IMG/VR virus record: IMGVR_UViG_3300017788_003032
Coordinates: 1-33,650 of that record
Length of the DNA stretch: 33,650 nucleotides
DNA from: a virus
Direction: 5' to 3' (one strand)
Both the position numbers and the translations under genes were made by a program. The notes beneath the pieces were generated by a model. It saw only the letters and a program-made list of their open reading frames with translations, had not been told where the DNA came from and ran no database searches. Positions 798-31,193 of this stretch are shown here, piece by piece. Position 1 is the first letter of the stretch. Every line of letters begins with the position of its first letter.

Positions 798-881
798 GTC
801 GGGGTGGTGGAACAGGTAGACACGCAAGACTTAAAATCTTGTGGCCCAAAGGCCGTGAGGGTTCGATTCCCTCTCCTGATA
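798..881 (+). tRNA. tRNA-Leu (UAA)
   Basis: This type II tRNA has a seven-pair acceptor stem (798-804 with 874-880, several G-U pairs), the anticodon loop CTTAAAA with anticodon TAA at 832-834, an extended variable arm (GTGGCCCAAAGGCCGT) and the T arm GGGTTCGATTCCC. The discriminator is A881. CCA is not encoded. Confidence 0.93.
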
Positions 882-919
882 CAAACACTATCGTTCTTTG
901 AAATAAAGGAGAAGATCAT

Positions 920-1165
920 ATGGATTTAATATCATTTATTTTAGGAATGTCTATAGTTGTGGTCATTGCAGTTGCTGTGGTTGCGGTTATGGCTTTTGTT
1001 AGGGTGAATAAACAAAAAGAAGAAATACAACAGATTCACCAGTTTCTTGCAAGAGAAATTGAAAATCAAATGAGAGACCGTGATAGAATTATTGACGATG
1101 TTTATCGAACAATGGATTCACGTCTTGATAAACTTGAAAGTAAATTATCTAGCCGAAAGGCATAA
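920..1165 (+). CDS. Small single-pass membrane protein with coiled coil
   Basis: This 81-aa protein has a long hydrophobic N-terminal segment (about residues 3-28, rich in Val, Ala and Ile). A charged helical tail follows (about 30-78) with heptad-like spacing, ending in DKLESKLSSRKA. The layout suggests an inner-membrane anchor with a cytoplasmic coiled coil. It is the only gene here preceded by a strong Shine-Dalgarno sequence (AAGGAG at about 907-912), which is unusual in Bacteroidota. It lies between tRNA-Leu and a DUF6435-like gene. I do not recognise the family; a spanin- or holin-like role is possible but unsupported. Confidence 0.7.
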   Translation: MDLISFILGMSIVVVIAVAVVAVMAFVRVNKQKEEIQQIHQFLAREIENQMRDRDRIIDDVYRTMDSRLDKLESKLSSRKA

Positions 1166-1208
1166 ACGTTAAATAAACTTTCAAAGACGATAGTGTTAAT
1201 TATAAATT

Positions 1209-1373
1209 ATGTTCGGAATATTCAAGAAGAAAACTGAGAAGGAAAAGCTACAGGAAACTTATAAGAAGTTGATGGAAGACGCTTATAAGGCTTCTCATTC
1301 CAACAGAACACAAGCAGACAAACTTATGGCGGAAGCCGAAGAAGTTGCTCAAAAAATTGATTTATTGAAGTAA
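1209..1373 (+). CDS. Lacal_2735/DUF6435-like small protein
   Basis: This 54-aa protein begins MFGIFKKKTEKEKLQ and continues as a charged helix ending AQKIDLLK. Start, length and the pattern of MFG-F-KKK, a helical YKKLMEDAY core and a Q-I-LK end match what I know of the Lacal_2735 (DUF6435) family. That family is common in Flavobacteriia and other Bacteroidota, and its function is unknown. The gene sits between a small membrane protein gene and tRNA-Arg. Finding this host-restricted family supports a Bacteroidota host and recent gene exchange. The assignment is by memory of the family, not by search. Confidence 0.72.
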   Translation: MFGIFKKKTEKEKLQETYKKLMEDAYKASHSNRTQADKLMAEAEEVAQKIDLLK

Positions 1374-1381
1374 TTCAATAT

Positions 1382-1456
1382 GTCCCCGTAGCTCAGCTGG
1401 ATAGTAGCGATTGCCTTCTAAGCAATAGGTCACACGTTCGAATCGTGTCGGGGATA
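1382..1456 (+). tRNA. tRNA-Arg (UCU)
   Basis: The acceptor stem pairs GTCCCCG with CGGGGAT. The D arm contains AGCTC, and the anticodon stem-loop ATTGC-CTTCTAA-GCAAT gives anticodon TCT. The T arm is CACACGTTCGAATCGTGT. CCA is not encoded. It reads AGA/AGG codons, which are frequent in these AT-rich genes. Confidence 0.93.
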
Positions 1457-1513
1457 CAAAAAAATATTTGACAAAATAAAAACATTTCATACATTTAAAG
1501 TAATTATAGAACA

Positions 1514-1588
1514 ATGAGAACTACAATTCAGCATATTATCAGTCAGAATCAACAAGAAAATTGTTGGTATGAGATTATGCCCATGTAG
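1514..1588 (+). other. Possible 24-codon leader ORF before a terminator
   Basis: An ATG at 1514 opens 24 codons (MRTTIQHIISQNQQ...MPM) ending in TAG, about 50 nt upstream of an intrinsic terminator. This resembles a leader-peptide arrangement, but there is no ribosome site or run of one amino acid to prove it. The rest of 1457-1639 shows nothing recognisable. Confidence 0.15.
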
Positions 1589-1639
1589 TTCGGAAGTTAT
1601 ATAAGAAAATTTTTTTTACAAGTAAAAACTAATTTTTCT

Positions 1640-1672
1640 AACCCCGAACTTAAAAAAGTTTGGGGTTTTTTT
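1640..1672 (+). terminator. Intrinsic terminator
   Basis: The inverted repeat AACCCCGAAC / GTTTGGGGTT (1640-1649 with 1658-1667, one G-U pair) surrounds an A-rich loop and runs into six or seven T residues. It ends the first tRNA/small-gene unit just before the promoter of the next tRNA block. Confidence 0.85.
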
Positions 1673-1681
1673 ATGACTTCT

Positions 1682-1711
1682 TTTGTTCTTTGAAATATTG
1701 TAGTATCTTTG
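1682..1711 (+). promoter_or_regulatory. Host-type (Bacteroidota) promoter of the tRNA block
   Basis: TTTG at 1682-1685, an 18-nt spacer and TATCTTTG at 1704-1711 match the Bacteroidota -33/-7 consensus (TTTG ... TAnnTTTG). The embedded GTTCTTTGAAAT is typical of host rRNA/tRNA promoters in this phylum. tRNA-Glu begins 13 nt downstream, so the primary sigma factor of the host should transcribe this block early. Confidence 0.75.
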
Positions 1712-1723
1712 TAAGACAAACAA

Positions 1724-1797
1724 GCTCCGTTCGTCTAATTGGTTAGGACACTCCCCTTTCACGGGAGAGCTTACGGGTTCGAGTCCCGTACGGAGTA
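1724..1797 (+). tRNA. tRNA-Glu (UUC)
   Basis: The acceptor stem pairs GCTCCGT with ACGGAGT (first pair G-U). The anticodon arm CTCCC-CTTTCAC-GGGAG gives TTC. The T arm is ACGGGTTCGAGTCCCGT and the discriminator is A1797. Confidence 0.94.
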
Positions 1798-1863
1798 CGC
1801 AAAAAACAAATAAGATGGAGTTTCTTTACCCCGTTAGGGATGAGTTTTAGAAATCTAAAAATT

Positions 1864-1931
1864 AGTCAGGTGGTGTAAATGGCAGCACGCGGTGATTAAC
1901 TGAAGAGCGGGTTAGAAACCCGTCCTGACTT
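1864..1931 (+). pseudogene. tRNA-like element with a defective anticodon arm
   Basis: A perfect 7-bp acceptor stem (AGTCAGG 1864-1870 with CCTGACT 1924-1930) is followed by a good D arm (GTGT..GCAC around a GG-containing loop). A T-arm-like hairpin, GCGGG-TTAGAAA-CCCGT, comes later. Only 18 nt separate the D and T arms, and no 5-bp anticodon stem with U33 can be drawn. The element looks like a decayed tRNA, or a tRNA-shaped RNA with another role. No amino acid can be assigned. Confidence 0.5.
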
Positions 1932-1947
1932 ACATTGAAACTATATG

Positions 1948-2018
1948 GTGGCTGTGGCCTAATGGTAGGGCGGAAGTTTGTGGCACTTCAGGTAAGAGTT
2001 CGATTCTCTTCGGTCACA
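1948..2018 (+). tRNA. tRNA-His (GUG)
   Basis: The acceptor pairs GTGGCTG with CGGTCAC, the anticodon arm is GAAGT-TTGTGGC-ACTTC with anticodon GTG, and the T arm is AGAGTTCGATTCTCT. G1947 could serve as the encoded G-1 of histidine tRNA. Confidence 0.9.
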
Positions 2019-2024
2019 CAAAAC

Positions 2025-2098
2025 GGTCAAGTACCCAAGTGGCTTAAGGGGCTTGTCTGCAAAACAAGTATCCAAGGGTTCGAATCCCTTCTTGACCT
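2025..2098 (+). tRNA. tRNA-Cys (GCA)
   Basis: The acceptor pairs GGTCAAG with CTTGACC. The anticodon arm CTTGT-CTGCAAA-ACAAG gives GCA. The T arm is AAGGGTTCGAATCCCTT. The discriminator U2098 fits cysteine identity. Confidence 0.94.
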
Positions 2099-2112
2099 CA
2101 AAAAATAAAGAT

Positions 2113-2661
2113 ATGAAAATCAACAGGAAGGATTTGTTATGGTTTATGAGTAACATCCGAAGAAAACAAGGTGATAAGGAATTGACTGATGAAGATCTTG
2201 TCAATCAATTGGCTCATTACATGGAGGTCAATCCTGGTTGTGTAGATATTAGAGGGGTGAACACACCTGGTAGATTCAGTTATTCTACCGTTGGATATGG
2301 TGTGTTCACTTTGTTGGGTGAGAAGTATAGAATGGGAAGAATCGAAGTTTTCGATAAAGAAGATGAAAGTGGTTATCAAGTCAGTGAAGGAATCTACACA
2401 ATGCCATTCGAAGCTGCAAATCAATTCGAGGATTTTATCGAATCATTGCAAACCGATTTACCAATTAACATTGAGATTGGATCGCACAAATGGTGTGAAG
2501 AGGAATGTGCGAAATCATTGGGATTTGAAAGTTCTGATGAAATGAGGGACCCTGAGAAAATTAAAGAATTTCGTCAAAAGAAAAATGATGAATATGCTAA
2601 AGAACAGGGGTATGAAAATTGGGAAGATTTGATGTCAAAAAGTAAATTTGCAAAAAAATGA
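2113..2661 (+). CDS. Phage protein of unknown function (182 aa)
   Basis: The start MKINRKDLL at 2113 lies just after tRNA-Cys; an upstream in-frame ATG at 2053 falls inside the tRNA and was rejected. The protein has an N-terminal helical part, a central segment of likely beta strands (about residues 45-90), and a lysine/glutamate-rich helical C terminus containing YENWEDLM. I do not recognise the family. Its stop overlaps the next start (ATGA at 2658), so it heads a tightly coupled four-gene operon ending at the nucleotidylyltransferase-like gene and tRNA-Trp. Confidence 0.75.
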   Translation: MKINRKDLLWFMSNIRRKQGDKELTDEDLVNQLAHYMEVNPGCVDIRGVNTPGRFSYSTVGYGVFTLLGEKYRMGRIEVFDKEDESGYQVSEGIYTMPFEAANQFEDFIESLQTDLPINIEIGSHKWCEEECAKSLGFESSDEMRDPEKIKEFRQKKNDEYAKEQGYENWEDLMSKSKFAKK

Positions 2662-2993
2662 AAACTATGAAACCGAGATTATCAAAAGATCAGAAAAAAG
2701 AAAAAATGGTTGTCGACATGATAAACAAGATGTTCGAGATTGCTGGTCACCCTGTGACTTTTGACGATGTCAAGGACCGTAAGGATAGTTGGTATACTGA
2801 TTGGACTATGACTATGGAACAAAACGACGAATGGAAAAAGTGGGGTAAAAAATACCTTATGAAAGAATTTCGTATGTACGCTAAAACTGCTGAAAAAGAA
2901 ATGTCGATGATTTCTTTGATGTGGGGACTAAAATTTAGTAACTTTGAACTCAATACTGTAGAAGATGACATTTCAGGAATTAAAAATTGGTGA
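2658..2993 (+). CDS. Phage protein of unknown function (111 aa)
   Basis: This small basic protein starts by a 4-nt ATGA overlap with the previous gene. It is rich in Lys, Met and Trp and is probably all-helical, with a W-rich middle (SWYTDWTMTMEQNDEWKKW). A conserved-looking tail, FRMYAKTAEKEMSMISLMWG, follows. It resembles small accessory proteins of T4-like phages, but no function can be assigned. Its 3' end overlaps the next gene by 29 nt, again implying coupled translation. Confidence 0.7.
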   Translation: MKTMKPRLSKDQKKEKMVVDMINKMFEIAGHPVTFDDVKDRKDSWYTDWTMTMEQNDEWKKWGKKYLMKEFRMYAKTAEKEMSMISLMWGLKFSNFELNTVEDDISGIKNW

Positions 2994-3153
2994 CAGAGTT
3001 AAGACGAGATATTCAGGATGGGCAACAGTCGTAGCGGTTGGGTCTTACGGAGGATCGATGGTGAAACTTAAATGCGATAAACCTGTTTGGGCTTGTCCCT
3101 ATTTCTATGAAAGTGAATTGGAATTGGAAACTTTAACCTACGAAACAAAATGA
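2965..3153 (+). CDS. Small SH3/KOW-like protein (62 aa)
   Basis: The sequence MTFQELKIGDRVKTRYSGWA is followed by alternating hydrophobic strands (VVAV, VKLKCD) and an ELELETL end. IGDRV near the N terminus with a following beta pattern is typical of small SH3-like barrels such as KOW-type domains. The ATG lies inside the preceding gene, and its stop overlaps the next start. Both overlaps support a real, translated gene. Function is unknown; a nucleic-acid or protein-binding accessory role is only inferred from the fold guess. Confidence 0.6.
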   Translation: MTFQELKIGDRVKTRYSGWATVVAVGSYGGSMVKLKCDKPVWACPYFYESELELETLTYETK

Positions 3154-3566
3154 AAATTGTAATTGTAAGTGGATATTTCAATCCTGTTCATAAAGGACAC
3201 ATTGAATATTTCAACAAGGCTAAAGAACATGGTGATAAACTTTATGTGATTGTCAACAACGACAAACAGAGAGAGTTGAAAGGTAGTAAAGAATTCCAAG
3301 ACGAAGATGAAAGGATGTTCATTATCCAAAACCTGAAAATGGTTGACAAAGTATTTCTATCTATTGATAAAGATAGAACTGTATGTCAGACACTCGGTTT
3401 GATTCACATCCTTGAGGATTTTGCAAACGAACTTATGTTCGCCAATGGTGGAGACCAAACAAACAATTCGATCCCTGAAAGACAGGTATGTGATTGGTGG
3501 GGGATTAAGTTAATTGATGGACTTGGAGATAAAATCCAATCTTCGTCTTGGTTGTTGAATAAATAA
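3150..3566 (+). CDS. Cytidylyltransferase-like nucleotidyltransferase
   Basis: This 138-aa protein starts MKIVIVSGYFNPVHKGH. It carries the HxGH signature (HKGH, about residues 14-17) of the nucleotidylyltransferase superfamily, which includes TagD-type glycerol-3-phosphate cytidylyltransferases and RfaE/HldE C-terminal domains. A further segment with VNND follows, and near the C terminus an SSSWLL segment sits where the family has its ISSTxIR motif. The expected reaction is transfer of a nucleotidyl group from CTP or ATP to a phosphorylated sugar or cofactor precursor. The substrate is unknown; glycan modification or cofactor synthesis are both possible. It is coupled to the preceding gene by an ATGA overlap. 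The tRNA-Trp gene begins at the first base after its stop codon. Confidence 0.8.
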   Translation: MKIVIVSGYFNPVHKGHIEYFNKAKEHGDKLYVIVNNDKQRELKGSKEFQDEDERMFIIQNLKMVDKVFLSIDKDRTVCQTLGLIHILEDFANELMFANGGDQTNNSIPERQVCDWWGIKLIDGLGDKIQSSSWLLNK

Positions 3567-3637
3567 ACATCTATGGTGAAATGGCATCATCACGGTCTCC
3601 AAAACCGTTGTTCCAAGTTCGAGTCTTGGTGGATGTG
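3567..3637 (+). tRNA. tRNA-Trp (CCA)
   Basis: The acceptor pairs ACATCTA with TGGATGT. The anticodon arm ACGGT-CTCCAAA-ACCGT gives CCA. The T arm is CCAAGTTCGAGTCTTGG and the discriminator is G3637, as expected for tryptophan. It abuts the TAA of the upstream gene (3564-3566) with no spacer, so it must be cut out of a mixed mRNA-tRNA transcript. Confidence 0.93.
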
Positions 3638-3648
3638 CTAAATGTAAA

Positions 3649-3722
3649 CTTCAGTACCCATACAGCAGTGAGATGGGCTAAGTTAGATACAATTCCTCGG
3701 AGCTGAAAGTAGAATGCTGAAG
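3649..3722 (+). ncRNA. Structured RNA element of tRNA size, not a tRNA
   Basis: A closing stem CTTCAG / CTGAAG (3649-3654 with 3717-3722) encloses a hairpin CCCAT / ATGGG (3657-3661 with 3672-3676) and a further GC-containing stretch. At about 74 nt it has tRNA dimensions, but there is no T arm with TTCGA and no anticodon arm. It lies between tRNA-Trp and tRNA-Gln and contains no convincing ORF. It is either a decayed tRNA or a small structured RNA processed with the tRNAs. Confidence 0.4.
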
Positions 3723-3775
3723 AACATTTATAGGTTGATTGGGGAGTTGTAAAAAAGGAAAGTTTATATCAACTT

Positions 3776-3846
3776 TGTCTTATGGTGTAACGGTAACACA
3801 ACTGATTTTGGTTCAGTTATTTCAGGTTCGAATCCTGATAAGACAT
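3776..3846 (+). tRNA. tRNA-Gln (UUG)
   Basis: The acceptor pairs TGTCTTA with TAAGACA perfectly. The first pair is U1-A72, which is typical of glutamine tRNA. The D arm is GTGT-AACGGTA-ACAC, the anticodon arm is ACTGA-TTTTGGT-TCAGT (TTG), and the T arm is TCAGGTTCGAATCCTGA. Confidence 0.93.
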
Positions 3847-3849
3847 CTA

Positions 3850-3936
3850 CAGAGAGTTGCCTGAGTGGTTAAAGGAGCAGATTGCTAATCTGTCATCTCG
3901 AAAGGGATGCATTGGTTCGAATCCAATACTCTCTGC
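3850..3936 (+). tRNA. tRNA-Ser (GCU)
   Basis: This type II tRNA has acceptor CAGAGAG / CTCTCTG and anticodon arm GCAGA-TTGCTAA-TCTGT giving GCT. It has an extended variable arm CATCTCGAAAGGGATG and T arm ATTGGTTCGAATCCAAT. It is separated from tRNA-Gln by only 3 nt. Confidence 0.92.
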
Positions 3937-3937
3937 G

Positions 3938-4006
3938 ATAACATTCTATGACGAAGGAACTCGATTGGGAACTGGAAGTGAGGGTACAATGCACATAGAA
4001 TGTTAT
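3938..4006 (+). ncRNA. Long perfect stem-loop between tRNA genes
   Basis: A perfect 13-bp inverted repeat, ATAACATTCTATG (3938-3950) with CATAGAATGTTAT (3994-4006), encloses 43 nt containing GGAAC and GGGAAC. There is no T arm or anticodon arm, so it is not a tRNA. It follows tRNA-Ser by 1 nt and precedes the next tRNA by 5 nt. Such a long stem is unlikely by chance and would form a stable RNA, either a processing signal or an independent small RNA. Confidence 0.5.
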
Positions 4007-4011
4007 TATAT

Positions 4012-4154
4012 TGTAAGGTGATGAAATTGGCAGACATACCCTCCTGTCTCGGGGGTGAGGAACTACTGATAAACGAGGAATAATGGGTTGACCACAATGC
4101 ATGCAATGTTCCTTGGCTAAAGTCCTCGTGGTGGTTCGAATCCACCTCTTACAG
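4012..4154 (+). tRNA. Type II tRNA with about 60 nt of extra variable arm (anticodon GUC?)
   Basis: The acceptor pairs TGTAAGG with TCTTACA. The D arm (ATGAAATTGGCAGACAT) is of leucine type. The T arm is perfect (GGTGGTTCGAATCCACC). The anticodon stem CCCTC / GGGGG encloses CTGTCTC, giving anticodon GTC, which would be Asp and does not match the Leu-like body. The variable arm opens with GAGGA and closes with TCCTC, but holds about 60 extra nucleotides, including a smaller AGGAA/TTCCT hairpin. Total length is about 143 nt. It may be a tRNA-Leu derivative interrupted by an insertion, an intron-like element, or a non-translating tRNA-shaped RNA. Confidence 0.6.
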
Positions 4155-4163
4155 CACAAAAAA

Positions 4164-4237
4164 GCGGGTATAGCTCAATTGGCTAGAGTGCCGTCCTTCC
4201 AAGTCGGAAGTTGTGAGTTCGAATCTCACTACCCGCT
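4164..4237 (+). tRNA. tRNA-Gly (UCC)
   Basis: The acceptor pairs GCGGGTA with TACCCGC, the D arm contains AGCTC..GAGT, and the loop CTTCCAA gives anticodon TCC. The anticodon stem CCGTC/GTCGG has one T-T mismatch. The T arm is GTGAGTTCGAATCTCAC and the discriminator is U. Confidence 0.92.
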
Positions 4238-4253
4238 CTTTTACTTATAACAA

Positions 4254-4328
4254 TGGGATATAGCTCAATTGGTTTAGAGCATTCGTCTGATACGCGAAAG
4301 GTTGGTGGTTCGAGTCCACCTATCCCAA
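4254..4328 (+). tRNA. tRNA-Ile (GAU)
   Basis: The acceptor pairs TGGGATA with TATCCCA. The D arm is GCTC..GAGC, the anticodon arm TTCGT-CTGATAC-GCGAA gives GAT, and the T arm is GGTGGTTCGAGTCCACC. The start codon of the next gene lies at 4330, one base past the discriminator. Confidence 0.93.
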
Positions 4329-4329
4329 C

Positions 4330-6508: not shown

Positions 6509-6540
6509 AAAAAAATCCCCCGAATATTCGAGGGATTTTT
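6509..6540 (-). terminator. Intrinsic terminator after the Oar-like receptor gene
   Basis: A 12-bp hairpin with one mismatch (AAATCCCCCGAA / TTCGAGGGATTT) lies just past the receptor stop on the minus strand. It is followed there by a T run (A run at 6506-6515 on the plus strand). Confidence 0.85.
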
Positions 6541-6545
6541 AATTT

Positions 6546-9500
6546 TTAATTGAAGTTATATCTCAAACCAAATTGCATTCTCCATACATCGGAAACACCT
6601 GCGGTTGGTCGATATGTGGTCTTAACCAAGTCGGTTCCAAAGTTTCTCATTCTGTGTTGTGCTCTTCCATCAGCACTTGCCGCTCCACCTTGAGTGGATG
6701 AAGGGATTACAAGAGGTTGAGTTGTGTTGAATGTTTGTCCGATACCCCACTCAGAATTCAACAAGTTACCCAAGTTAAGAACATCGACTCTGAATTCCAA
6801 AGCGTTTTTCTTTCCTTTGATGTTTGTGAATAGTTGTTGTGCGATAGACATATCTGCTCTGTAAACCATCGGCATGATTACCGCACCTCTTTTAGCGTAT
6901 TTACCTCTGTTTGCACTTAGGTACTTATCTTGCTGAATGTATGCTTCCCATGCGTCAGCTTGTTCAGCTGCGGTGAATGTCTTTCCACTTGCGGTGTACT
7001 GTTGGAAGTTCATTTGGTCTTTGGTCTTTGGAATAAAGATAAGGTCATTTGAAGTTCCACCATCATTGTTTAAGTCACCACCGTAAACATAACTTGCGTT
7101 TCCAAGTGTTCTACCTTCCCAAAATACTGAAACTGATGTGTTTCCGAATTTGAATAGGTCTTTGGTATAACTTGCAGTTGCGAATACTCTGTGACCCATG
7201 AAGTTGGATGAGAATCCAAGACCAGGGATGTTAGGGTCTTGAGAAATTGGATTTCCGAACCAAGTACCTGCTGCAATTGAACCTGGATCTACAGTGTTTT
7301 TGGTTTCACCATAACTGTAAGCTGCTTTCACGAACAATCCATTATCAAATGGTCTTTCCAAAGTGAATGAACCTACCCAAGAATAACCGATTGCTTGATT
7401 CGAAAGAGTCACAGCATTTGGGATTTTGGAGTTGATTCTATTACTTGTAAGCCATCTGTATCTTGTATCAGGTCCTGTAAAATTGGACTGTGGTACAGGA
7501 AGGTTTGCGTTATAATAAGCCATACCGTTTACATCTGAGCTGTAGATGAATTCTGCAGTTGCGATGATTCCCAAAGGTAATTTTTGGTCGATTGCAACGT
7601 TGGTTCTCCATACTTGCGGGAACTTGAAATTCGGTTCAGTGAGAGCCAATTCATAAGATGATGCAGGATTTCCTGTAACTGTTGTTGGTTTGTAAGTATT
7701 CGGGTCAGGATTGAATGGTCTTGTTGTTGTGTTGTCCAACTGAGCAAAACCTGTCAAAATACCGTTGTTTCCAACTTGGTTCGAAATCCATACATAAGCT
7801 GGTCGACCTGTGAATACACCTGTTCCACCTCTAACTTGTGTTTTTTGGTTATTAAATACATCCAAGTTGAAACCCAATCTTGGTGACCACAAAATGTTTG
7901 CGTCAGGAAGTTTGTCCGTTCTGAAGTTCAAGAATGCGCCAGCGGCATTTCTGAAGTAGAAATTTTCAACTTCTGTATTTCTCAATGCAGTTGCACCGAA
8001 GTGAGGAACGTCGAATCTCAAACCAACTGTAAATTTCAAGTTTTGTAATACTTGAATTTCATCTTGAGCATAAAGTCCGAAGTAATCAACTTCGAGTGGT
8101 TGGATTGGTTTCTCGGAACCTGGGATGTTATTCCATCTTACTTGGAATCTTCTCAAGTTTACACCTGATGGAGTTTTGTTTCCGTTTGCCAAGAAGTTGT
8201 TCGCGTCTTTGTAGAAATCGTCCAAAGAGTTATACACATAAACTGACTGAGAACCAGGGAAGAATACGTTTTCAGATTGGTATTTCTCATATGTTCCACC
8301 TGCAGTGATTGTGTGATTTCCAGCAAAGATTTGAAGGTTGTTTTGAACTTGGAATGTTTTGTATCTAAGTTCATTGTTTGGTGTGAAAGGTTCAAAACCA
8401 AATGAAGTATAAGTTGCTCCATTGTTTAGAATATCAACCATTGGGAAGAATTCTCCTTTGTAACCACGACTCTCATCTTGGTAAGTGTAACCAATAATCA
8501 AATTGTTCGATACTTTGCTTCCAAGCCTTGAGTTCAATTCACCAACTACAGAACGGATGTTTTCCATAATACTGTAGTTTGAGTTTTGGAAATTCAATGC
8601 TTCGGGTCTGAAATTTCTATTACCAAAACCTAATGAAGAAGACCCTGACATCAAAACGTCAGTTGAAGAATCCAAATGATTGTATCTCAAACTTAGTTTA
8701 TTGTTGTCATTGATATTGTAATCAAATTTAATCAATCCTTTGGTTGATAAAGTTTGATTATCATAATCTTGGTAAGGTCCTGTCTCATAACCGAACTTGT
8801 CTTTCAAGAAACCACTCAAGGTGTTCAAATCTGATGCAAGAACTCTTGTAACATTTCCTGTGATTGGTTCTCCACCATTGTTTGCTCTCCAAGTTGTGCC
8901 TGGTCTTGATTCTTCATCATCTTCGAATGAAGCAAAGAAGAATAGTTTGTCCTTCACAATTGGACCACCAACTCTGAAACCTTGTTGTTTGTAAGTGAAA
9001 TCTCCAGGATTGAATGTGTTTACACCCGCTTTGGTTCCAACATTGTTGTTGTTTCTCCAAAAGTAGTAAGCTGATCCGATTATTTCGTTTGTACCAGATC
9101 TCGTTACTGTGTTTACACCAGCACCTGTGAAGTTTCCTTGTCTTACGTCATAAGGAGCAACGTTTACTGAAATTTGGTCAATTGCATCCAAAGAAATTGG
9201 AGATACACCTGTTCTACCACCAGGGTTTGAACCTGAACCCAACCCAAATGAGTTGTTAAAGTAAGAACCATCGACTGTGATGTTGTTCAATCTCCCGTCT
9301 TGACCTGCGAAAGATTGTCCATTAGATTGTGGTGTCAACCTTGTAAAGTCGTTGATACTTCTTGAGATTGTTGGAAGTTTTGAAAGATTTTGGTTTGTGA
9401 TTCCTGTTGAAGCACCAGTTCTTTCTGAACTGAATACAGGATTCTTTTCACCAATAACTACAACTTCGTCAATACCCAATGCCTCTTCCTTCAATTCCAC

Positions 9501-9827
9501 GTTGAGATTCTTGGTTACACCCAAACTCAAAATAATGTCTGAAGTTTCTTGAGCCGAGTATCCGATGAAGGAAACCAATAATGTATAAGGACCACCGACC
9601 CTCATGTTTGGAATAAAATAACGTCCCTCGTTATTTGTAACAGTAAAATACTTTGTGCCAGATGGGATGTGGACTGACGCAACAGTAGCACCTGGTAAAG
9701 GTTCTCCTGTGTTACTAACGACTCTACCTGATAAACCTGAAGTTGTTACACCTTGAGAAAACGTCAGTCCGAAAGACATCAGTAAAAACAAGAATGATAA
9801 AACCCCTTGTAATAGATTTTTTTTCAT
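6546..9827 (-). CDS. Oar-like TonB-dependent receptor
   Basis: This is a complete 1093-aa outer-membrane receptor. It has a signal peptide (residues 1-25, ending TFSQG) and a carboxypeptidase-regulatory-like beta sandwich (about 30-115). A TonB-box-like DEVVVIGE lies at 120-127, followed by a plug domain (about 130-250) and a 22-strand-type barrel ending in the aromatic RYNFN. Plug sequences such as SRSINDFTRLTPQ and NNITVDGSYFNNSFG are characteristic of Oar proteins of Myxococcota and Bacteroidota. Such proteins move large substrates, including peptides, through the outer membrane using TonB energy. No frameshift or truncation is seen. Base composition is close to the flanking phage genes, though the protein is slightly more GC-rich in coding style. 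A receptor of this class is not a standard phage gene; roles in nutrient uptake, receptor replacement or superinfection exclusion are all conjecture. Confidence 0.93.
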   Translation of the reverse strand: MKKNLLQGVLSFLFLLMSFGLTFSQGVTTSGLSGRVVSNTGEPLPGATVASVHIPSGTKYFTVTNNEGRYFIPNMRVGGPYTLLVSFIGYSAQETSDIILSLGVTKNLNVELKEEALGIDEVVVIGEKNPVFSSERTGASTGITNQNLSKLPTISRSINDFTRLTPQSNGQSFAGQDGRLNNITVDGSYFNNSFGLGSGSNPGGRTGVSPISLDAIDQISVNVAPYDVRQGNFTGAGVNTVTRSGTNEIIGSAYYFWRNNNNVGTKAGVNTFNPGDFTYKQQGFRVGGPIVKDKLFFFASFEDDEESRPGTTWRANNGGEPITGNVTRVLASDLNTLSGFLKDKFGYETGPYQDYDNQTLSTKGLIKFDYNINDNNKLSLRYNHLDSSTDVLMSGSSSLGFGNRNFRPEALNFQNSNYSIMENIRSVVGELNSRLGSKVSNNLIIGYTYQDESRGYKGEFFPMVDILNNGATYTSFGFEPFTPNNELRYKTFQVQNNLQIFAGNHTITAGGTYEKYQSENVFFPGSQSVYVYNSLDDFYKDANNFLANGNKTPSGVNLRRFQVRWNNIPGSEKPIQPLEVDYFGLYAQDEIQVLQNLKFTVGLRFDVPHFGATALRNTEVENFYFRNAAGAFLNFRTDKLPDANILWSPRLGFNLDVFNNQKTQVRGGTGVFTGRPAYVWISNQVGNNGILTGFAQLDNTTTRPFNPDPNTYKPTTVTGNPASSYELALTEPNFKFPQVWRTNVAIDQKLPLGIIATAEFIYSSDVNGMAYYNANLPVPQSNFTGPDTRYRWLTSNRINSKIPNAVTLSNQAIGYSWVGSFTLERPFDNGLFVKAAYSYGETKNTVDPGSIAAGTWFGNPISQDPNIPGLGFSSNFMGHRVFATASYTKDLFKFGNTSVSVFWEGRTLGNASYVYGGDLNNDGGTSNDLIFIPKTKDQMNFQQYTASGKTFTAAEQADAWEAYIQQDKYLSANRGKYAKRGAVIMPMVYRADMSIAQQLFTNIKGKKNALEFRVDVLNLGNLLNSEWGIGQTFNTTQPLVIPSSTQGGAASADGRAQHRMRNFGTDLVKTTYRPTAGVSDVWRMQFGLRYNFN

Positions 9828-9865
9828 TGTTTTTGTTTTTTGTTATTTATTTGTTTGTTTATTTA

Positions 9866-9900
9866 TAAAAAAAAATCCCGAGTATATCAATACACGGGAT
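9866..9900 (-). promoter_or_regulatory. Terminator-like hairpin in the 5' leader of the Oar-like gene (candidate attenuator)
   Basis: On the minus strand the stem ATCCCG-(A mismatch)-GTAT / ATAC-(A)-CGGGAT (9875-9900) is followed by nine T residues, then about 40 nt of A-rich leader and the receptor ATG. It has the form of an intrinsic terminator, but sits upstream of the gene. It is therefore either an attenuator or a stop for antisense transcription. The rest of the 9828-10094 gap holds two TATTTAT(A/T) octamers on the plus strand (9844-9851, 9860-9867) and a TAATTTTG at 10034-10041. None of these is a convincing promoter for the divergent receptor. Confidence 0.5.
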
Positions 9901-10094
9901 AGATTTTTCCACTGATAAAATAATAATTTTCCGTAAGTCGACAGTTTCGAGTCATACCCTTATAAGTATAAGTGTTTACTACTTGGAAGTAAATTTTTTG
10001 AATTTTTTTTTTAACAACAACATAATCATTTGATAATTTTGAATTTGAGGTTTCGAAGGTCACTTCTCGTAATTATTGTTGAAAAAATCATATA

Positions 10095-12578
10095 ATGACA
10101 AAATATTTTATTTTTATGTTGCTTTTTCCTTTGAGTGTTTTCTCCCAAGAAAAAGTTAAACTTCAGGGTAAAACCAAATCAACTAGTGAAGAAATATATT
10201 TCGCCCACATAACATTTCAGAATAAAGAGGGACAAGTTTTTACTACAATATCTAATGAAAATGCCCAATATGAAATTGATTTGGTTTCAGGAGAATATCA
10301 GGTAAAAGGAAGTTACATTGGATACAAAGATTTCGTAACGAACATTACTGTAACTTCAGATACAAATATAGATATTATTTTTGAGGCGACCGATACGGAG
10401 TTAAACGAAGTTTTAGTTCGAGGAACTGCACAAAAAGTCACAGATATTTCAGTGATGAAATCCATCAGAAATAATATTGTCGTATCTGATGGACTATCAA
10501 TAGAATTTATAAAGAAGACCCCCGATAGAAATTTGGGTGACGCATTGAAACGAGTAAGTGGTGTCACAATTCAGAATGACAAATTTGTTTTGGTTCGAGG
10601 ACTTGCCGATAGATATAATTCGGCATTATTGAATCAAACACCATTACCCTCCACAGAACCCGACAGACGAGCATTCTCGTTTGACATTATCCCAACTTCT
10701 TTGATTGATAATATTATGGTTTCCAAATCATTTTCAGCAAACCAACCTGGTGATTGGAGTGGAGGACTGGTTCAAGTATCGACAAAGGAGGTGTCCGACA
10801 ATTTTTTGGACGTAAGCTTCGGGACGGGAATCGGATCTGTCTCGACTTTCCAAGATTTCAAACTGGTGGAATCGACCCCATTTCCATTAACCTTTCCTTC
10901 CACCTACAAATTCCGAATGAGTGGTAATGGTGATAAAAGATTATTTACAAAACTAATAGGAAACCCAACAGAGAATAGTTTCCAATCCATACCAAACTTG
11001 AATGGAGGACTTTCATTTGGGTATGTGAAAAACAAATTCAATTCATTACTCAGTTCAACAATTAGAAACACAAATACCCTCAACATCATTGAGAGAAAGG
11101 ATTATCAATCTTCAACAGAACTGGCATATGATTATAATGATAGATTATATACACAGAGATTTTCCACAAATGGATTGTTGAACTTAACTTATTTGGGAAA
11201 AAACAAATATAGTTGGAAGACATTGGCAAACTTCCAAAAAGAAAGTTCTTACCTAACCCGAGAAGGTCAAAACTTTGACAATGTTCAAGATGTGTTGAGT
11301 AATGCGTCAAACCATATCAATAACGTGGTAATCAACTCACAGGTTGATGGTAATATTGAAACCTTTGATTTCAATTTCGGATATAACTACATCTTCAGAG
11401 AACAACCTGATTATAGAATTAACCCAATCACCAAATCATTAGGTGTGAATGAACCATTCTCAACCGCATGGAGAGACACCTACAGATTTTGGAGCATCAT
11501 GGATGAAAACTCATTCAACGGAAATATCAAGAAAGATTTGGGTAAATTCAAAGTGGGTGGTGGTTATTTGAAAAAAATAAGAGGATTCAACGCAAGAGTT
11601 TTCAGATATCAGACAACGGATTTATTGGATGAAATAACCAACAATACCGATAGATACACCGCCGACTTTGATTTGGGAAATCTTTACACGATGTATGAAA
11701 ACGAAATTGGAAAATGGAAAATCAATACAGGTGTAAGAGGTGAATATAACTTGTTTGATGTTGAAACCGCAGATTTCAGTGGTCAAAAGGTAAATGTGGA
11801 TAGAACATATTTGGACATTCTTCCATCATTGAACCTTTCTTATAACTTGGAGAAAACAAAATATAGATTCTCTTTGAGTAAGACCTTGGCAAGACCAGAG
11901 TTCAGAGAAGTTGCAAACTTCGCATATTATGACTTTGTTAGAAACGCACAAATATTAGGAAACTCAAACTTGAAAAAAACCGACGTATACAATGTTGATT
12001 TGAAATACGAGTTATACCCTTCAAACACAGAAAACATTTCCCTTTCATTCTTCGGCAAAAACTTCATAAACCCAATCGAACAAATTGTTGCTGATGGGTC
12101 AGTTCCATCCAACTTACTTTTAACTTATGCAAATCCTGAATCAGCACTTGTATATGGTGTTGAAATGGAAGTTAGAAAAAGAATAAATGGATGGTTTGAT
12201 TTTTACACAAACGCTTCAGTTATGAATTCTGAGGTTGATGTGAATGGTGTAAAAAGACAATTACAAGGACAATCAAACTATGTTGTTAATTCAGGTGTGA
12301 ACATCAACAAGAAAAATAATACACTTAATCTAACCTACAATAGAATTGGAGAAAGAATTTCTGCTGTCGGATTTCAGGGCTACCCCGACATATTCGAAAA
12401 TAGTAGAGATGTTTTGGATATTACTTTCTTACATAAACTTCCAAAGGGAGAGTTGAAGTTGGCAATATCAGACATTTTTGCACAACCATCAATAAACTAT
12501 CAAAGAATTTCAAACCGTAATTTAATAAACACAAATAACGAAACAATAGTTTCATTAACCTTAAATCTAAATTTATGA
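10095..12578 (+). CDS. TonB-dependent receptor (827 aa) with carboxypeptidase-like N domain
   Basis: A signal peptide (residues 1-17, ending VFSQE) is followed by a carboxypeptidase-regulatory-like domain (about 20-100, with YIGYKDFV). LNEVLVRG at 103-110 is TonB-box-like. The plug (about 130-235) contains RNLGDALKRVSGVTIQND and VLVRGLADRYNSALLNQTPLP, a recognisable plug signature. The beta barrel ends in SLTLNLNL. The sequence is intact and of normal length for siderophore/nutrient-type receptors. It is translationally coupled (ATGA, 12575) to a lipoprotein gene, the common Bacteroidota layout of receptor plus surface partner, although that partner is not SusD-like. The substrate is unknown. 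It is transcribed away from the Oar-like gene across a 267-bp gap. Confidence 0.93.
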   Translation: MTKYFIFMLLFPLSVFSQEKVKLQGKTKSTSEEIYFAHITFQNKEGQVFTTISNENAQYEIDLVSGEYQVKGSYIGYKDFVTNITVTSDTNIDIIFEATDTELNEVLVRGTAQKVTDISVMKSIRNNIVVSDGLSIEFIKKTPDRNLGDALKRVSGVTIQNDKFVLVRGLADRYNSALLNQTPLPSTEPDRRAFSFDIIPTSLIDNIMVSKSFSANQPGDWSGGLVQVSTKEVSDNFLDVSFGTGIGSVSTFQDFKLVESTPFPLTFPSTYKFRMSGNGDKRLFTKLIGNPTENSFQSIPNLNGGLSFGYVKNKFNSLLSSTIRNTNTLNIIERKDYQSSTELAYDYNDRLYTQRFSTNGLLNLTYLGKNKYSWKTLANFQKESSYLTREGQNFDNVQDVLSNASNHINNVVINSQVDGNIETFDFNFGYNYIFREQPDYRINPITKSLGVNEPFSTAWRDTYRFWSIMDENSFNGNIKKDLGKFKVGGGYLKKIRGFNARVFRYQTTDLLDEITNNTDRYTADFDLGNLYTMYENEIGKWKINTGVRGEYNLFDVETADFSGQKVNVDRTYLDILPSLNLSYNLEKTKYRFSLSKTLARPEFREVANFAYYDFVRNAQILGNSNLKKTDVYNVDLKYELYPSNTENISLSFFGKNFINPIEQIVADGSVPSNLLLTYANPESALVYGVEMEVRKRINGWFDFYTNASVMNSEVDVNGVKRQLQGQSNYVVNSGVNINKKNNTLNLTYNRIGERISAVGFQGYPDIFENSRDVLDITFLHKLPKGELKLAISDIFAQPSINYQRISNRNLINTNNETIVSLTLNLNL

Positions 12579-13771
12579 AAAAACTATTAACAATTCTAAT
12601 CGCATTAGGACTCTTCAGTTGTGATAGAGACTTAGGTGGAGGAGAAGGGCCAATCAATGTTCCATCCACTACAACACTTACAGGAAACATAAATACAACA
12701 ACAACTTTGACATCTGACAAAGTTTGGACATTGAAAGGATATGTTTATGTAACCGATGGAGCAAAACTTATTATCCAACCTGGAACTACCATAGTTTCTG
12801 ACGTGGCTGAGAAGGGGGCATTATGTATTGAAAGAGGTTCCCAAATTATTGCGGAAGGAACCCAATCCAAACCTATCGTATTTACGTCAGGGAGACCTGA
12901 GGGACAACGATCTCCTGGTGATTGGGGTGGTATAGTAATTTTAGGTAGAGCGAAGACAAACCGTTCCTCTGAACCTACAATCGAAGGTGGAATCGGAAGA
13001 CCTTATGGTGGAACAAATGATTCTGACAATAGTGGTGTAATGAGATATGTTAGAATTGAATACGCAGGAATCGCAGCGATGCCGAATTCTGAAATTAACG
13101 CACTTACTTTAGGTGGTGTAGGAAACGGAACAATTCTTGAAAACATTCAAACAATATATGCAAACGATGACGCATTCGAATTCTTCGGAGGAACTGTGAA
13201 CGGAAAAAACCTTTACGCATACGCAACCGCAGATGATGATTTCGACTTTGATTTCGGTTACACAGGAATGATTACAAACGGAGTGGCAAAAAGAGACCCC
13301 CAATTTGTTGATAGTGGTGACGCTGGAAATGGTGTAGAATGTGATAATGATGGAACTGGGTCATCGGCACAACCATATACACACCCAAAACTTTACAATA
13401 TGATTTTGGTTGGTCCGAATGTATCTACAGCACTTGCGAACCACAACTTAGGATTGAGATTCAGAAGATCGACTCAGTTCACGATGAAGAACAGTGTAGT
13501 TTGGGGATGGATGAAAGGTGGATTGAGTTTGGAAAGTAATGAAACTGCACAATTCGTAAAAGATGGTGTATCTGTCTTTGAAAACAATTCTGTTGGAACA
13601 TTCAATCCAACTCTGAATTTCATTAGTAGAGCAACAACAATTCTAACAAGTGAACAATTGAAAACTTTGGCTCTTTCTAAAAGTAATAAAGAAATAGATG
13701 TGGTGATTCCCGAACTGGCGATGCCGACTTGGGTCAACGGATGGACAAGATTTCCGTCAAAAGGAAACTAA
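12575..13771 (+). CDS. Receptor-partner lipoprotein with beta-helix-like repeats
   Basis: The 398-aa precursor has a lipoprotein signal peptide (lipobox LFSC, Cys16) followed by acidic CDRDLGGGEG, which could act as a surface-export signal. A region of repeating short strands follows: GAKLIIQPGTTIV, GSQIIAEGTQSKPIVFTSG, GDWGGIVILGRA, ENIQTIYANDDAFEFFGG. Such repeats suggest a right-handed parallel beta helix. The middle is rich in Asp (ADDDFDFDFGYTG), possibly binding calcium. Similar proteins are encoded beside TonB-dependent receptors in Bacteroidota genomes, and its 4-nt overlap with the receptor gene argues that they act together at the cell surface. The ligand is unknown. It is followed directly by a strong terminator. 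Confidence 0.82.
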   Translation: MKKLLTILIALGLFSCDRDLGGGEGPINVPSTTTLTGNINTTTTLTSDKVWTLKGYVYVTDGAKLIIQPGTTIVSDVAEKGALCIERGSQIIAEGTQSKPIVFTSGRPEGQRSPGDWGGIVILGRAKTNRSSEPTIEGGIGRPYGGTNDSDNSGVMRYVRIEYAGIAAMPNSEINALTLGGVGNGTILENIQTIYANDDAFEFFGGTVNGKNLYAYATADDDFDFDFGYTGMITNGVAKRDPQFVDSGDAGNGVECDNDGTGSSAQPYTHPKLYNMILVGPNVSTALANHNLGLRFRRSTQFTMKNSVVWGWMKGGLSLESNETAQFVKDGVSVFENNSVGTFNPTLNFISRATTILTSEQLKTLALSKSNKEIDVVIPELAMPTWVNGWTRFPSKGN

Positions 13772-13774
13772 AAA

Positions 13775-13802
13775 AAAAGGGAGTCATTGACTCCCTTTTT
13801 TA
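13775..13802. terminator. Bidirectional intrinsic terminator
   Basis: The hairpin AAAGGGAGTC / GACTCCCTTT with loop ATT (13776-13798) has a T run on the right and an A run on the left. It can therefore stop both the receptor-lipoprotein mRNA (plus) and the tmRNA transcript (minus, 3' end 13810). Confidence 0.9.
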
Positions 13803-14282: not shown

Positions 14283-15329
14283 ATGATTAATATAGGAACC
14301 TTCAAAGCTCTTAGGGATTACGTGAAAGGAAAAATATCTGCAAGAGAACTGGAGAGTGTGGAGAAAGTATTTGCGGACGTGAGAGAAAAACCAAAAAGGG
14401 GTGAAAGTATTATTGAAGTCGAATTTCAAAATTCCGAAGATTTTTTGAGAAAATTGGGGATGACCGACGATGACATTTGGATTTATCAAAATGTAACGAG
14501 TCCATACTCTGACTATGATTTTTTTGACCGATACACCTCTATAAATGATTTCATGGAGGGTTATGGATTTTATTATTATTTGGATGAGGAAAATACAGAA
14601 CTATTATCACAAATTTCGAAGGCAATTTTACCGATGAAATTTGATTTGGACGATGATAAATTCAGAATTCAATTGTCCGAAAAATTGATGGAAAATTTTT
14701 CGAGGGAAACAAAAAATATTTTAGATGATTTTACTGACGAAAGAAATTATCAAGTAAGAAATTCATTAAGAAAAGAAGTAGAAAAAGATATGGATGAATT
14801 TTTTTCTCAATTGGATTTTCAAGCTAATGATACAGGATTCAAAACAACGGTTGCAGATTTGTTGATGTTGTATATGGAACACAACGCAATACATTTAAAC
14901 CTTAATGATTTGTTAGAAAAGGTTTATTCTGAAAGGTCGGGTGCTCCTGGTGGATGGTCTGAGGATTGGTATGATTATACTGATGATGACGAATTTGATA
15001 AAATCAGTTTCAATCGGTATGCAAATGGCCAATTGAATCAAATGTTAGAAACAATAGAGGAGGAGGGAGAAGAAGAGGGAGTTGTGTTCGAAAATTTTGT
15101 TGATATGACCAACAGAATTACAAAAAAGTTTAATCAAGGAGAATATTATTTTCTGCCGAAAAATCCGAAAAAAGAAACAAGATTCAAGATTGACGGGTTT
15201 GAATATCCATCAATGAAGATTACAGTAACACTTCAAAAAGGACTTCAACAAACGACCGTAAAATTATCCGAAGAAAATTTTTATCATTTATTATTCCAAC
15301 CTTCATTGTTCAATTTGGATGCAATCTAA
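14283..15329 (+). CDS. Phage protein of unknown function (348 aa)
   Basis: This acidic, helix-rich protein begins MINIGTFKALRDYVKG. It has a long charged region (about residues 115-185, FSRETKNILDDFTDERNYQ...) and many acidic doublets (DDDEFDK, EEEGEEEG). The C terminus looks beta-rich (RFKIDGFEYPSMKITVTL). No catalytic motif is seen. Size and position ahead of enzyme genes in the late region fit a phage-specific structural or assembly protein, but no specific function can be named. The ATG immediately after the TATTTATT box is the only reasonable start. Confidence 0.75.
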   Translation: MINIGTFKALRDYVKGKISARELESVEKVFADVREKPKRGESIIEVEFQNSEDFLRKLGMTDDDIWIYQNVTSPYSDYDFFDRYTSINDFMEGYGFYYYLDEENTELLSQISKAILPMKFDLDDDKFRIQLSEKLMENFSRETKNILDDFTDERNYQVRNSLRKEVEKDMDEFFSQLDFQANDTGFKTTVADLLMLYMEHNAIHLNLNDLLEKVYSERSGAPGGWSEDWYDYTDDDEFDKISFNRYANGQLNQMLETIEEEGEEEGVVFENFVDMTNRITKKFNQGEYYFLPKNPKKETRFKIDGFEYPSMKITVTLQKGLQQTTVKLSEENFYHLLFQPSLFNLDAI

Positions 15330-17458: not shown

Positions 17459-19474
17459 TTACCGACCTTTCTTGATTACTTTGACTTCTTCATTTTCGAC
17501 TTTAATTACATAGGTTTTACCTGGTATAATTTTGTCGGTCAGAACTTCTTCGGATAATAAGTCTTCGACTTTATCTTGGATTGCTCTCTTGAGAGGTCTC
17601 GCTCCATAGACTTCATCGTAACCAATTTTGGATAGATAATCCAAAAGTGATTCATCATAACTTATCTTGTACTTCATTTCATCAAGACGCTTCATCAACT
17701 TTTTAAGTTCGATGTCAGTGATTTTTTTGATGTCTTCTTGAGACAAAGAATTGAATACAATAGTATCGTCGATACGATTGATGAACTCAGGAGAAAAGAA
17801 ATTTTTCATCTCTTTCATCAAGATTTCTTTTTTCGCTTCTTCGTTACTGTAGGTGTTATTGGAGAATCCAATACCAGTACCAAAGTCTTGGAGTTTTTTC
17901 ACACCAAGATTTGAGGTAAGAATAATCAAAGTGTTTTTAAAGTTGATTTTTCTACCCAAACTATCTGTGACGTGACCATCATCTAAGATTTGAAGTAATA
18001 CAGTGAATACATCTTTGTGAGCCTTTTCAACCTCATCGAATAAGATTACAGAATAAGGTTTGTTCTTAACCTTTTCGGTAAGAAGACCCCCTTCTTCATA
18101 ACCCACATAACCTGGAGGTGCTCCAACCAATTTAGAAACCGTATGTTTCTCTTGGTACTCGGACATATCTACACGGATAAGAGAATCTTCACTTCCAAAC
18201 ATTTCTTTTGCAAGTTGTTTAACTAAGTGAGTTTTACCAACACCCGTGGGGCCTAAGAAAATGAATGACCCTATTGGACGATTTGGGTCTTTGATTCCAA
18301 GACGATTTCTCTTAATGGACTTCGCAACTTTGATTACAGCTGCATCTTGACCGATTACTGTACCAACAATTTGTTTATCCAAGTTGAGAAGGGCTTTCGA
18401 ATCATCTGTGGACATTTTATTGACAGGAATTTTGGTCATGTTCGAAACAACATCATATACATCCTCCAAACTGATTTTCTGTTTGTCCTTTGACATCTGT
18501 TCTTCAAACTTCTGTTTTTCTTGTTCTAATTTGTCCAACAACTTTTTCTCCTTGTCCCTGAGTTGAGCCGCTTGTTCGTAGTTCTGTTTTTTTACAACAT
18601 CCAATTTTTGTTGTTTTAACTCCGCAGCTTTACGTTTCAACTCTTCAATTGATTCAGGTACTTTCAATTCAGTTTGCATTCTTGCTCCGACCTCGTCCAT
18701 AATGTCAAAAGCTTTGTCGGGAAATTCACGGTCAGTGATGTATCTCTCGGCAAGTTTCACACAGGTTTCAATTACCTCATCCGAATAAACTACTTTGTGA
18801 TATGATTCATACTTATCACGAAGGTTTCTCAGAATTTGAATTGTTTCTGCAACTGAAGATGGTTCCACAATTACTTTTTGGAATCTACGCTCCAATGCTC
18901 CATCTTTTTCGATGTTTTTTCTAAATTCATCCAAAGTTGTCGCACCGATGACTTGGATTTCCCCACGAGACAATGCAGGTTTGAAAATGTTGGAACCGTC
19001 CATTGAACCAGATGAATTTCCTGAACCTACCAAAGTATGAATCTCATCAATGAAAACAATGATGTTTGGATTCGATTGAAGTTCTTCGATAATTACTTTC
19101 ATCCTCTCCTCGAATTGTCCACGGTATTTTGTACCAGCGACAACGGAAGTTAAATCAAGATTAACCAATCTTTTGTCCAACAAGTTTCTTGGACAATCCC
19201 CATTTACAATTTTCATCGCTAAGCCTTCAACGATTGCAGTCTTACCACAACCAGGTTCACCAATGATAATTGGGTTATTCTTTTTTCTTCGGGATAGGAT
19301 TTGAGCAATTCTAAGAATTTCTCTATCTCTTCCGATTACGGGGTCTAACTTTCCCGCTTCAGCAAGTTTATTCAAATCTCTACTGAAATTATCAAGTACA
19401 GGTGTTGAGGTCTCACTTGCAGACTTCTGTTTTTTACTCATCATTTTGTCTTCGTCGTCCATTAGGTCATTCAT
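17459..19474 (-). CDS. ClpC/ClpA-type AAA+ unfoldase lacking the N-domain
   Basis: The 671-aa protein has two intact AAA+ modules. D1 has Walker A GEPGCGKT (72-79) and Walker B IVFIDEIH (139-146). D2 has Walker A GPTGVGKT (408-415) and VILFDE (476-481). The middle region (about 275-330) carries a UVR-like segment (KKQNYEQAAQLRDKEKK), as in ClpC. A GIGF tripeptide loop at about 534-537, where ClpA/ClpC bind ClpP, suggests docking to a host ClpP, as no clpP is in this window. The two Clp_N repeats that normally fill the first 140 residues are missing; 27 polar residues replace them. That would remove normal adaptor binding. It is divergent from a UVR-motif protein gene. Confidence 0.92.
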   Translation of the reverse strand: MNDLMDDEDKMMSKKQKSASETSTPVLDNFSRDLNKLAEAGKLDPVIGRDREILRIAQILSRRKKNNPIIIGEPGCGKTAIVEGLAMKIVNGDCPRNLLDKRLVNLDLTSVVAGTKYRGQFEERMKVIIEELQSNPNIIVFIDEIHTLVGSGNSSGSMDGSNIFKPALSRGEIQVIGATTLDEFRKNIEKDGALERRFQKVIVEPSSVAETIQILRNLRDKYESYHKVVYSDEVIETCVKLAERYITDREFPDKAFDIMDEVGARMQTELKVPESIEELKRKAAELKQQKLDVVKKQNYEQAAQLRDKEKKLLDKLEQEKQKFEEQMSKDKQKISLEDVYDVVSNMTKIPVNKMSTDDSKALLNLDKQIVGTVIGQDAAVIKVAKSIKRNRLGIKDPNRPIGSFIFLGPTGVGKTHLVKQLAKEMFGSEDSLIRVDMSEYQEKHTVSKLVGAPPGYVGYEEGGLLTEKVKNKPYSVILFDEVEKAHKDVFTVLLQILDDGHVTDSLGRKINFKNTLIILTSNLGVKKLQDFGTGIGFSNNTYSNEEAKKEILMKEMKNFFSPEFINRIDDTIVFNSLSQEDIKKITDIELKKLMKRLDEMKYKISYDESLLDYLSKIGYDEVYGARPLKRAIQDKVEDLLSEEVLTDKIIPGKTYVIKVENEEVKVIKKGR

Positions 19475-28340: not shown

Positions 28341-28341
28341 C

Positions 28342-28349
28342 TATTTATA
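28342..28349 (+). promoter_or_regulatory. TATTTATA box, 27 nt before the portal gene
   Basis: The box starts 1 nt past the terminase stop codon, in the 36-nt gap before the portal ATG. Confidence 0.55.
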
Positions 28350-28376
28350 TTATCAGGGTAAATAGTAAAATTACGT

Positions 28377-30227: not shown

Positions 30228-30230
30228 TAA

Positions 30231-30238
30231 TATTTATT
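30231..30238 (+). promoter_or_regulatory. TATTTATT box, 12 nt before ATG 30251
   Basis: The box starts 3 nt past the portal stop codon and precedes the 232-aa gene. Confidence 0.5.
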
Positions 30239-30250
30239 TGAAAAAAGACA

Positions 30251-31132: not shown

Positions 31133-31146
31133 ATATTAGAAATATC

Positions 31147-31154
31147 AATAAATA
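31147..31154 (-). promoter_or_regulatory. TATTTATT box (minus), 14 nt before the bS21 ATG
   Basis: Read on the minus strand, this is the second leftward copy of the box. It is again in the orientation of its gene. Confidence 0.5.
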
Positions 31155-31163
31155 TAAAAAAAT

Positions 31164-31193
31164 TTTGACATTTCTCCATATAATGTATATTTT
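31164..31193 (+). promoter_or_regulatory. Possible host-type promoter for the 146-aa gene
   Basis: TTTG (31164-31167), an 18-nt spacer and TATATTTT (31186-31193, 7 of 8 match to TAnnTTTG) lie 37 nt before the ATG at 31231, divergent from bS21. Confidence 0.35.

Follow-up and report, generated by a model that had tools for sequence, protein, structure and literature searches.

The stretch of DNA analysed here (the window) is an entire IMG/VR virus record of 33,650 b. It carries ten tRNA genes at 798–4329 and encodes a T4-type terminase, a Gp20 portal and an S77 prohead protease at 26580–32424; the source contig is that of a T4-like phage. Between the tRNA genes and the late genes lie three intact open reading frames, at exactly the coordinates given in a sequence-only reading of this DNA: w13, an Oar-like TonB-dependent receptor of 1093 aa on the minus strand (6546–9827); w14, a TonB-dependent receptor of 827 aa on the plus strand (10095–12578); and w15, an outer-membrane lipoprotein of 398 aa, coupled to w14 on the same strand (12575–13771). 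A terminator-like hairpin at 6511–6540 (minus strand) ends w13, and a bidirectional one at 13773–13801 ends the w14–w15 unit.

Domain architecture of the encoded proteins

w14 has the plug, C-terminal outer-membrane beta-barrel and signal peptide of a TonB-dependent receptor. Pfam and an alignment of viral relatives give it an N-terminal CarboxypepD-like domain, a plug and an OMP_b-brl_3 barrel; the Pfam scores are 90 bits for OMP_b-brl_3 (2e-25; cut-off 27), 34.8 bits for Plug (2.5e-8; cut-off 23.9) and, slightly below the cut-off of 32.2, 31.5 bits for pf13715. In the translation the signal peptide ends in FSQ and is accompanied by a TonB-box-like stretch, NEVLVRG. Barrel strands are present in an AlphaFold model of w14, the mean pLDDT of which is only 57, from a shallow alignment. 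Phage w14 occurs in two forms, one of ~825 aa with the N-terminal CarboxypepD-like domain and one of ~750 aa lacking it.

The w14 and w15 reading frames overlap by 4 nt, an overlap which is kept in essentially every viral locus where both genes are complete. w15 has the lipobox LFSC and matches no family in Pfam or NCBIfam. It thus lacks a SusD domain, which excludes a SusD-type partner as found in a SusCD/PusCD complex. An AlphaFold model predicts w15 to be a right-handed parallel beta-helix (pLDDT 79.6). All neighbours of this model in a Foldseek search of the PDB are beta-helix proteins, the best with an E-value of 1.9e-3 and none below 0.001, and the model resembles beta-helix proteins that act on polysaccharides.

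For w13, Pfam detects OMP_b-brl_4 (5e-45, 154.6 bits) and CarboxypepD_reg (5e-19, 68.9 bits). It is counted as Oar-like on the combination of CarboxypepD_reg, a plug and OMP_b-brl_4 within ~1000–1100 aa, with a plug that is sub-threshold (18.7 bits against a cut-off of 23.9). Its signal peptide also ends in FSQ, and a TonB-box-like DEVVVIG is present. The earlier reading of both receptors as intact is borne out. Searches of PHROGs, NCBIfam and PDB sequences returned nothing informative for w13 or w15.

A PhoB-box-like operator upstream of w14

Three 11-bp direct repeats, TAACaacaacaTAATcatttgaTAAT, lie at 10012–10037 on the plus strand, and the third of them is followed, 36 bp downstream, by a -7-like promoter element, TAATTATTG (10070–10078, plus strand). 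The triple occurs once in the window (0.1 expected), just before w14, and is shared with bacterial homologues. Its recurrence was assessed in 42 thinned phage w14 upstream regions, with 400 other phage genes as control. In the w14 set, whose members are in part related by descent and thus do not give independent counts, TAA(C/T) recurs at 11 bp in 46 pairs against 3.1 in shuffles; such a pair is found in 29/42 w14 promoters and 16/400 other genes (p 4e-24), a triple in 10/42 and 0/400, and TAAY exactly 36 bp above TA(A/G/C)TTATTG in 17/42 and 0/400. The exact pair is missing from 13 of the 42.

In promoters of the bacterial homologues the 11-bp TAAY repeats are much more pronounced still (175 against 3.6 expected, compared with 22 against 7.8 for background genes). 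The repeats are mostly absent from Chitinophagaceae PiT/DUF47 genes. An overly strict pattern, two copies of TAACATTN4, gave no sites in 12 genomes and was then relaxed to TAACA-N6-TAACA-N6-TAAC, which has 12 distinct sites in 19 bacterial genomes. Seven of these 12 precede Pho genes, namely four w14 homologues, one PiT gene and two PhoB-like regulators. The 2.5-Mb Aquirufa genome has only two such sites, one before the receptor–lipoprotein operon and the other before a PiT gene, and at both the repeat lies 36 bp above a TAnnTTTG-type element, as in the phage geometry.

On this comparative evidence we take the repeats to be a PhoB box of Bacteroidota that the phages carry. A Pho box in the promoter, one mark of a phosphorus auxiliary gene, is thus present as an in silico prediction; in cyanophages, Pho-box prediction has been found unreliable without binding data (PMC10976474). 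The same comparison provides evidence for what a Bacteroidota Pho box would look like, that is, 11-bp TTAACA-type repeats 36 bp above TAnnTTTG.

Bacterial homologues and the phosphate regulon

Among the best 80 bacterial relatives of w15, whose loci amount to 1.40 Mb of DNA, every one has a w14-type receptor nearby, nearly always immediately upstream. A PHO4/PiT gene lies within ~10 kb in 24 of the 80 loci, against ~0.35 expected, an estimate made from about one PHO4 gene per genome and the 1.40 Mb. Neighbours of the bacterial pair confirmed by Pfam include PHO4, PhoU_div, Porin_O_P, Alk_phosphatase and HisKA/response-regulator pairs. Two loci (L221 and L222) contain the run pstB-pstA-pstC-pstS-(porin-like)-TBDR-lipoprotein-pstS-response regulator; in the first, Pfam confirms the PBP, ABC and BPD domains, the porin-like protein being without such confirmation. 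Roughly two in three bacterial loci, for example those of Pedobacter, have no PiT or DUF47 gene within 10 kb. A family of ~400 aa with no Pfam match, x397, is convergent to w15 in 22 of the 80 loci (L091–L170) and may be a further Pho-linked gene.

A characterised counterpart is found in Flavobacterium johnsoniae, where the phoBR operon includes the TonB-dependent transporter Fjoh_0545 (pf07715, pf13715, pf14905) and the lipoprotein Fjoh_0546 (IPR011050, pectin-lyase fold), with log2FC values of 8.0 and 9.9, respectively, on Pi depletion; the pair is induced by Pi depletion only, and not by that of N or Fe (PMC8115612). This PUSIV arrangement, with Fjoh_0546 as its FII lipoprotein, shares with w14–w15 a Plug/CarboxypepD/OMP_b-brl_3 receptor followed by a beta-helix-type lipoprotein, pf13715 being marginal in w14 and the fold of w15 coming from a model. 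The genomic link to phoBR and phosphate transport is likewise found in the bacterial homologues of w14–w15, which adjoin phoBR, porin and pit/pst genes. By architecture, context and fold, Fjoh_0545/0546 would be the counterpart of w14–w15. The phage copy differs in lying apart from phoBR and the transporters, a linkage confined to the bacterial homologues, and in its 4-nt overlap, its own operator and its residence in T4-like phages.

A more distant parallel is provided by Caulobacter, in which phosphate starvation leads to production of the surface lipoprotein ElpS, which is linked there to a TonB-dependent receptor, Cc0171 (PMC2996285). The FI/FII lipoproteins are 31–36% identical to ElpS (PMC8115612). 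In contrast to the phage pair, ElpS and Cc0171 are chromosomal, involve a T2SS-dependent release step, and include a receptor reported to be constitutive (PMC2996285). The gene comparisons made here show w14 and w15 to descend from a bacterial Pho-linked operon.

A proposed role in phosphorus acquisition

We propose, with a probability of about 0.78, that w14–w15 serves T4-like Bacteroidota phages as an auxiliary module for phosphorus acquisition, placed behind a PhoB-box-like operator for the host's PhoB. In this reading it corresponds to the receptor and surface lipoprotein that Bacteroidota make as part of their Pho regulon. The pair resides in phages, its coupling is conserved, its bacterial relatives are Pho-linked, and operator and promoter geometry are common to both. 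A host-derived, probable phosphorus-acquisition gene lies inside a phage genome. When the host is starved of phosphate, its own PhoB would bind the operator and switch on w14–w15 during infection. At the cell surface, the beta-helix lipoprotein w15 would bind a phosphorus source, either phosphate or an organophosphate, or present it, and w14 would import it into the periplasm with energy supplied through TonB. Host phosphatases and PiT/Pst transporters would then complete uptake in support of phage DNA synthesis. The infected cell would probably keep importing phosphorus in this way, to the benefit of the phage. Of the three roles put forward in the sequence-only reading, restored nutrient uptake during infection is the best supported, and for w14–w15 the evidence narrows it to phosphorus.

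It is unlikely, though conceivable, that the pair instead imports a non-phosphorus cargo such as a metal chelate, vitamin or glycan, the Pho context in bacteria covering only part of the family. TonB-dependent receptors vary in substrate, the w15 model matches polysaccharide-active beta-helix proteins, and Lidbury et al. (2020) suggest that FI/FII bind cell-wall glycan (PMC8115612). However, in bacteria the pair is repeatedly found linked to genes for Pit, Pst, porin and PhoBR, the operator is common to a PiT gene and phoB-like genes, and the F. johnsoniae counterpart responds to Pi depletion alone (PMC8115612), all of which argues for phosphorus.

Phages commonly use TonB-dependent receptors for attack and do not usually bring their own. 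Most known phage phosphorus genes come from cyanophages and act in the periplasm or cytoplasm. To our knowledge, w14–w15 would be the first system for TonB-dependent nutrient import to be encoded by a phage, and no paper on a phage-encoded TonB-dependent receptor was found in a search of a library of open-access papers. The established periplasmic equivalent is cyanophage pstS under PhoBR (PMC10976474). Cyanophage pstS and phoA share with w14–w15 a T4-like phage, a host-derived phosphorus gene and a Pho-box-like promoter, as well as a patchy distribution and changing gene neighbourhoods (PMC10976474 and work cited there). In contrast, w14–w15 is an outer-membrane receptor with a surface lipoprotein rather than a periplasmic binding protein or phosphatase, and it belongs to phages of Bacteroidota, in one long-lived phage clade as opposed to host-by-host acquisition. 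What is new relative to known phage phosphorus genes is thus the location (outer membrane, TonB-dependent), the host group, and a single long-lived module exchanged among phages.

More broadly, it appears likely that one clade of T4-like Bacteroidota phages possesses an outer-membrane uptake system that is long-lived and exchanged horizontally, comprises receptor, lipoprotein and host-PhoB-responsive operator, and remodels the infected-cell surface for phosphorus scavenging, sometimes together with an independently acquired Oar-like receptor. If so, phages of the abundant Bacteroidota would also manage the phosphorus supply of their hosts, at its first barrier, and would offer a clear, testable regulatory link between phage and host. 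The work also points to a possible function for a receptor–lipoprotein family about which little is known.

Two modules with separate histories

The two receptors and the lipoprotein had been described as a single cassette. The closest syntenic relatives of the window (L012, 142 kb; L014; L015, 326 kb; and L075) carry w12-w14-w15-w16 in the absence of w13, while L010 has w13 and lacks w14. The window has two different receptors next to each other, as do L002, L059, L074 and L077. The w14–w15 pair occurs in at least eight different phage gene neighbourhoods. Since w14–w15 and w13 can each be found without the other and differ in their histories, they do not form one cassette; they are two separate modules, adjacent here by chance.

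On the w15 tree, phage lineage, as set by w16/w17/w20 synteny, requires six changes, so w14–w15 has passed from one phage lineage to another. The w15 sequences of IMG/VR phages all group in a single clade (100*), within or beside which Aquirufa falls; the closest bacterium is Aquirufa antheringensis, whose w15 is 69% identical. The fork that holds L151 fits transfer in either direction, from bacteria to phage or from phage to Aquirufa. A distant w15–w14 pair, in reversed gene order, is present in a 634-kb uncultured phage (LR745206.1, 72170–89048; L239), where the 11-bp repeat box was not found; this pair excepted, the 'phages' collection gave weak matches only. A patatin-like gene, as read from the sequence, lies near the LR745206.1 pair. 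Directly upstream of w14 in L026 and L043 is a look-alike of a tRNA-gene 3' end (GGTTCGAATCCC...CTCCACCA) followed by a terminator; the w14–w15 module may insert beside phage tRNA genes.

The Oar-like receptor w13

In the w13 tree, two phage clades are nested among Cytophagales Oar-like receptors, and the clade that includes the window is sister to chromosomal genes of 75–76% identity. The phage protein is full-length and 75–77% identical to the chromosomal copies (genomes G539 and G194), from which it differs in being phage-borne, in two separate phage clades with no gene neighbourhood in common. As judged from the tree, w13 came into phages twice, apart from w14–w15. In other phages w13 is preceded by a block that includes GroES- and IMPDH-like genes; in L003–L009 the GroES- and IMP dehydrogenase-like genes, read by eye, lie upstream of w13 in a block that adjoins a clamp-loader-like gene.

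Because its phage promoters have no Pho-like repeats, w13 is left out of the phosphorus interpretation. A phosphorus role for w13 is nevertheless possible, because more distant Oar-like genes adjoin w14–w15 with 11-bp repeats in L154 and L224, and because an orphan TonB-dependent transporter of F. johnsoniae with pf13620, Fjoh_3841, is Pi-induced (PMC8115612). These two points also count against the idea that, instead of importing a nutrient, w13 follows the Oar route and handles the export or processing of a secreted product, an idea that we regard as unlikely. The Oar-like domains of w13, the missing Pho-like operator and the nearest bacterial homologues, which are single genes with no Pho neighbours, would fit such a route, but no exported partner is encoded near w13, and nothing here supports the role suggested earlier for export of a phage product.

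The presence of two different receptors side by side, together with the general use of TonB-dependent receptors by phages, could also reflect superinfection control or receptor replacement, whereby adsorption of competing phages is blocked or progeny are allowed to re-adsorb. This is improbable: w14 never lacks its lipoprotein partner and in most cases has a Pho-type operator as well, neither of which a receptor swap would need, and its plug and barrel motifs are strongly conserved in the alignment of phage sequences, whereas receptor escape would favour variable loops. Nothing in the analysis points towards such a function.

In the window, the leader directly before the w13 start codon has a hairpin with a T run behind it (ATCCCGTGTATTGATATACTCGGGATTTTTTTTT in w13 sense; 9875–9900, minus strand). 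L002 retains this hairpin, and L010, whose w13 is just 43% identical, has it with a differing sequence. It may act as an attenuator or, as a terminator, insulate the module.

Phage context and authenticity of the locus

Relatives of w14, at 62–97% identity, are found in 79 IMG/VR viral loci, and relatives of w13 in ten; together with the tRNA and late genes of the window, these homologues bear out the view of the receptors as phage-borne. An independent contig, 3300005805_000361 (L002/L013), repeats the order w20-w19-w18-w17-w16-w15-w14-w13-w12-w11-w10-w09, with both receptors included, and thereby supports the contiguity of the window. Among the 50 longest records, 22 also encode a T4 portal and none encodes ribosomal protein S9. 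Misassembly, which had been named as the result that would overturn the phage assignment, and bacterial contamination are ruled out by this synteny, the 79 viral loci, the portals and the absence of S9. The receptor genes are clearly bacterial in origin, with Cytophagales relatives of w13 at up to 77% identity, but host contamination, a chimeric assembly or accidental cargo is extremely improbable given the second contig, the missing S9, the conservation of the w14 promoter among phages and the intact w14–w15 frames in many phage neighbourhoods (71–96% identity).

Also in the window, a ClpA/ClpB-like AAA+ protease ATPase (phrog_4871; 17459–19474, minus strand) is 80–94% identical among these phages, above its neighbours. 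The conserved module neighbour w16 (14283–15329, plus strand) diverges fast, at 28–58% identity where the flanking genes are at 70–95%.
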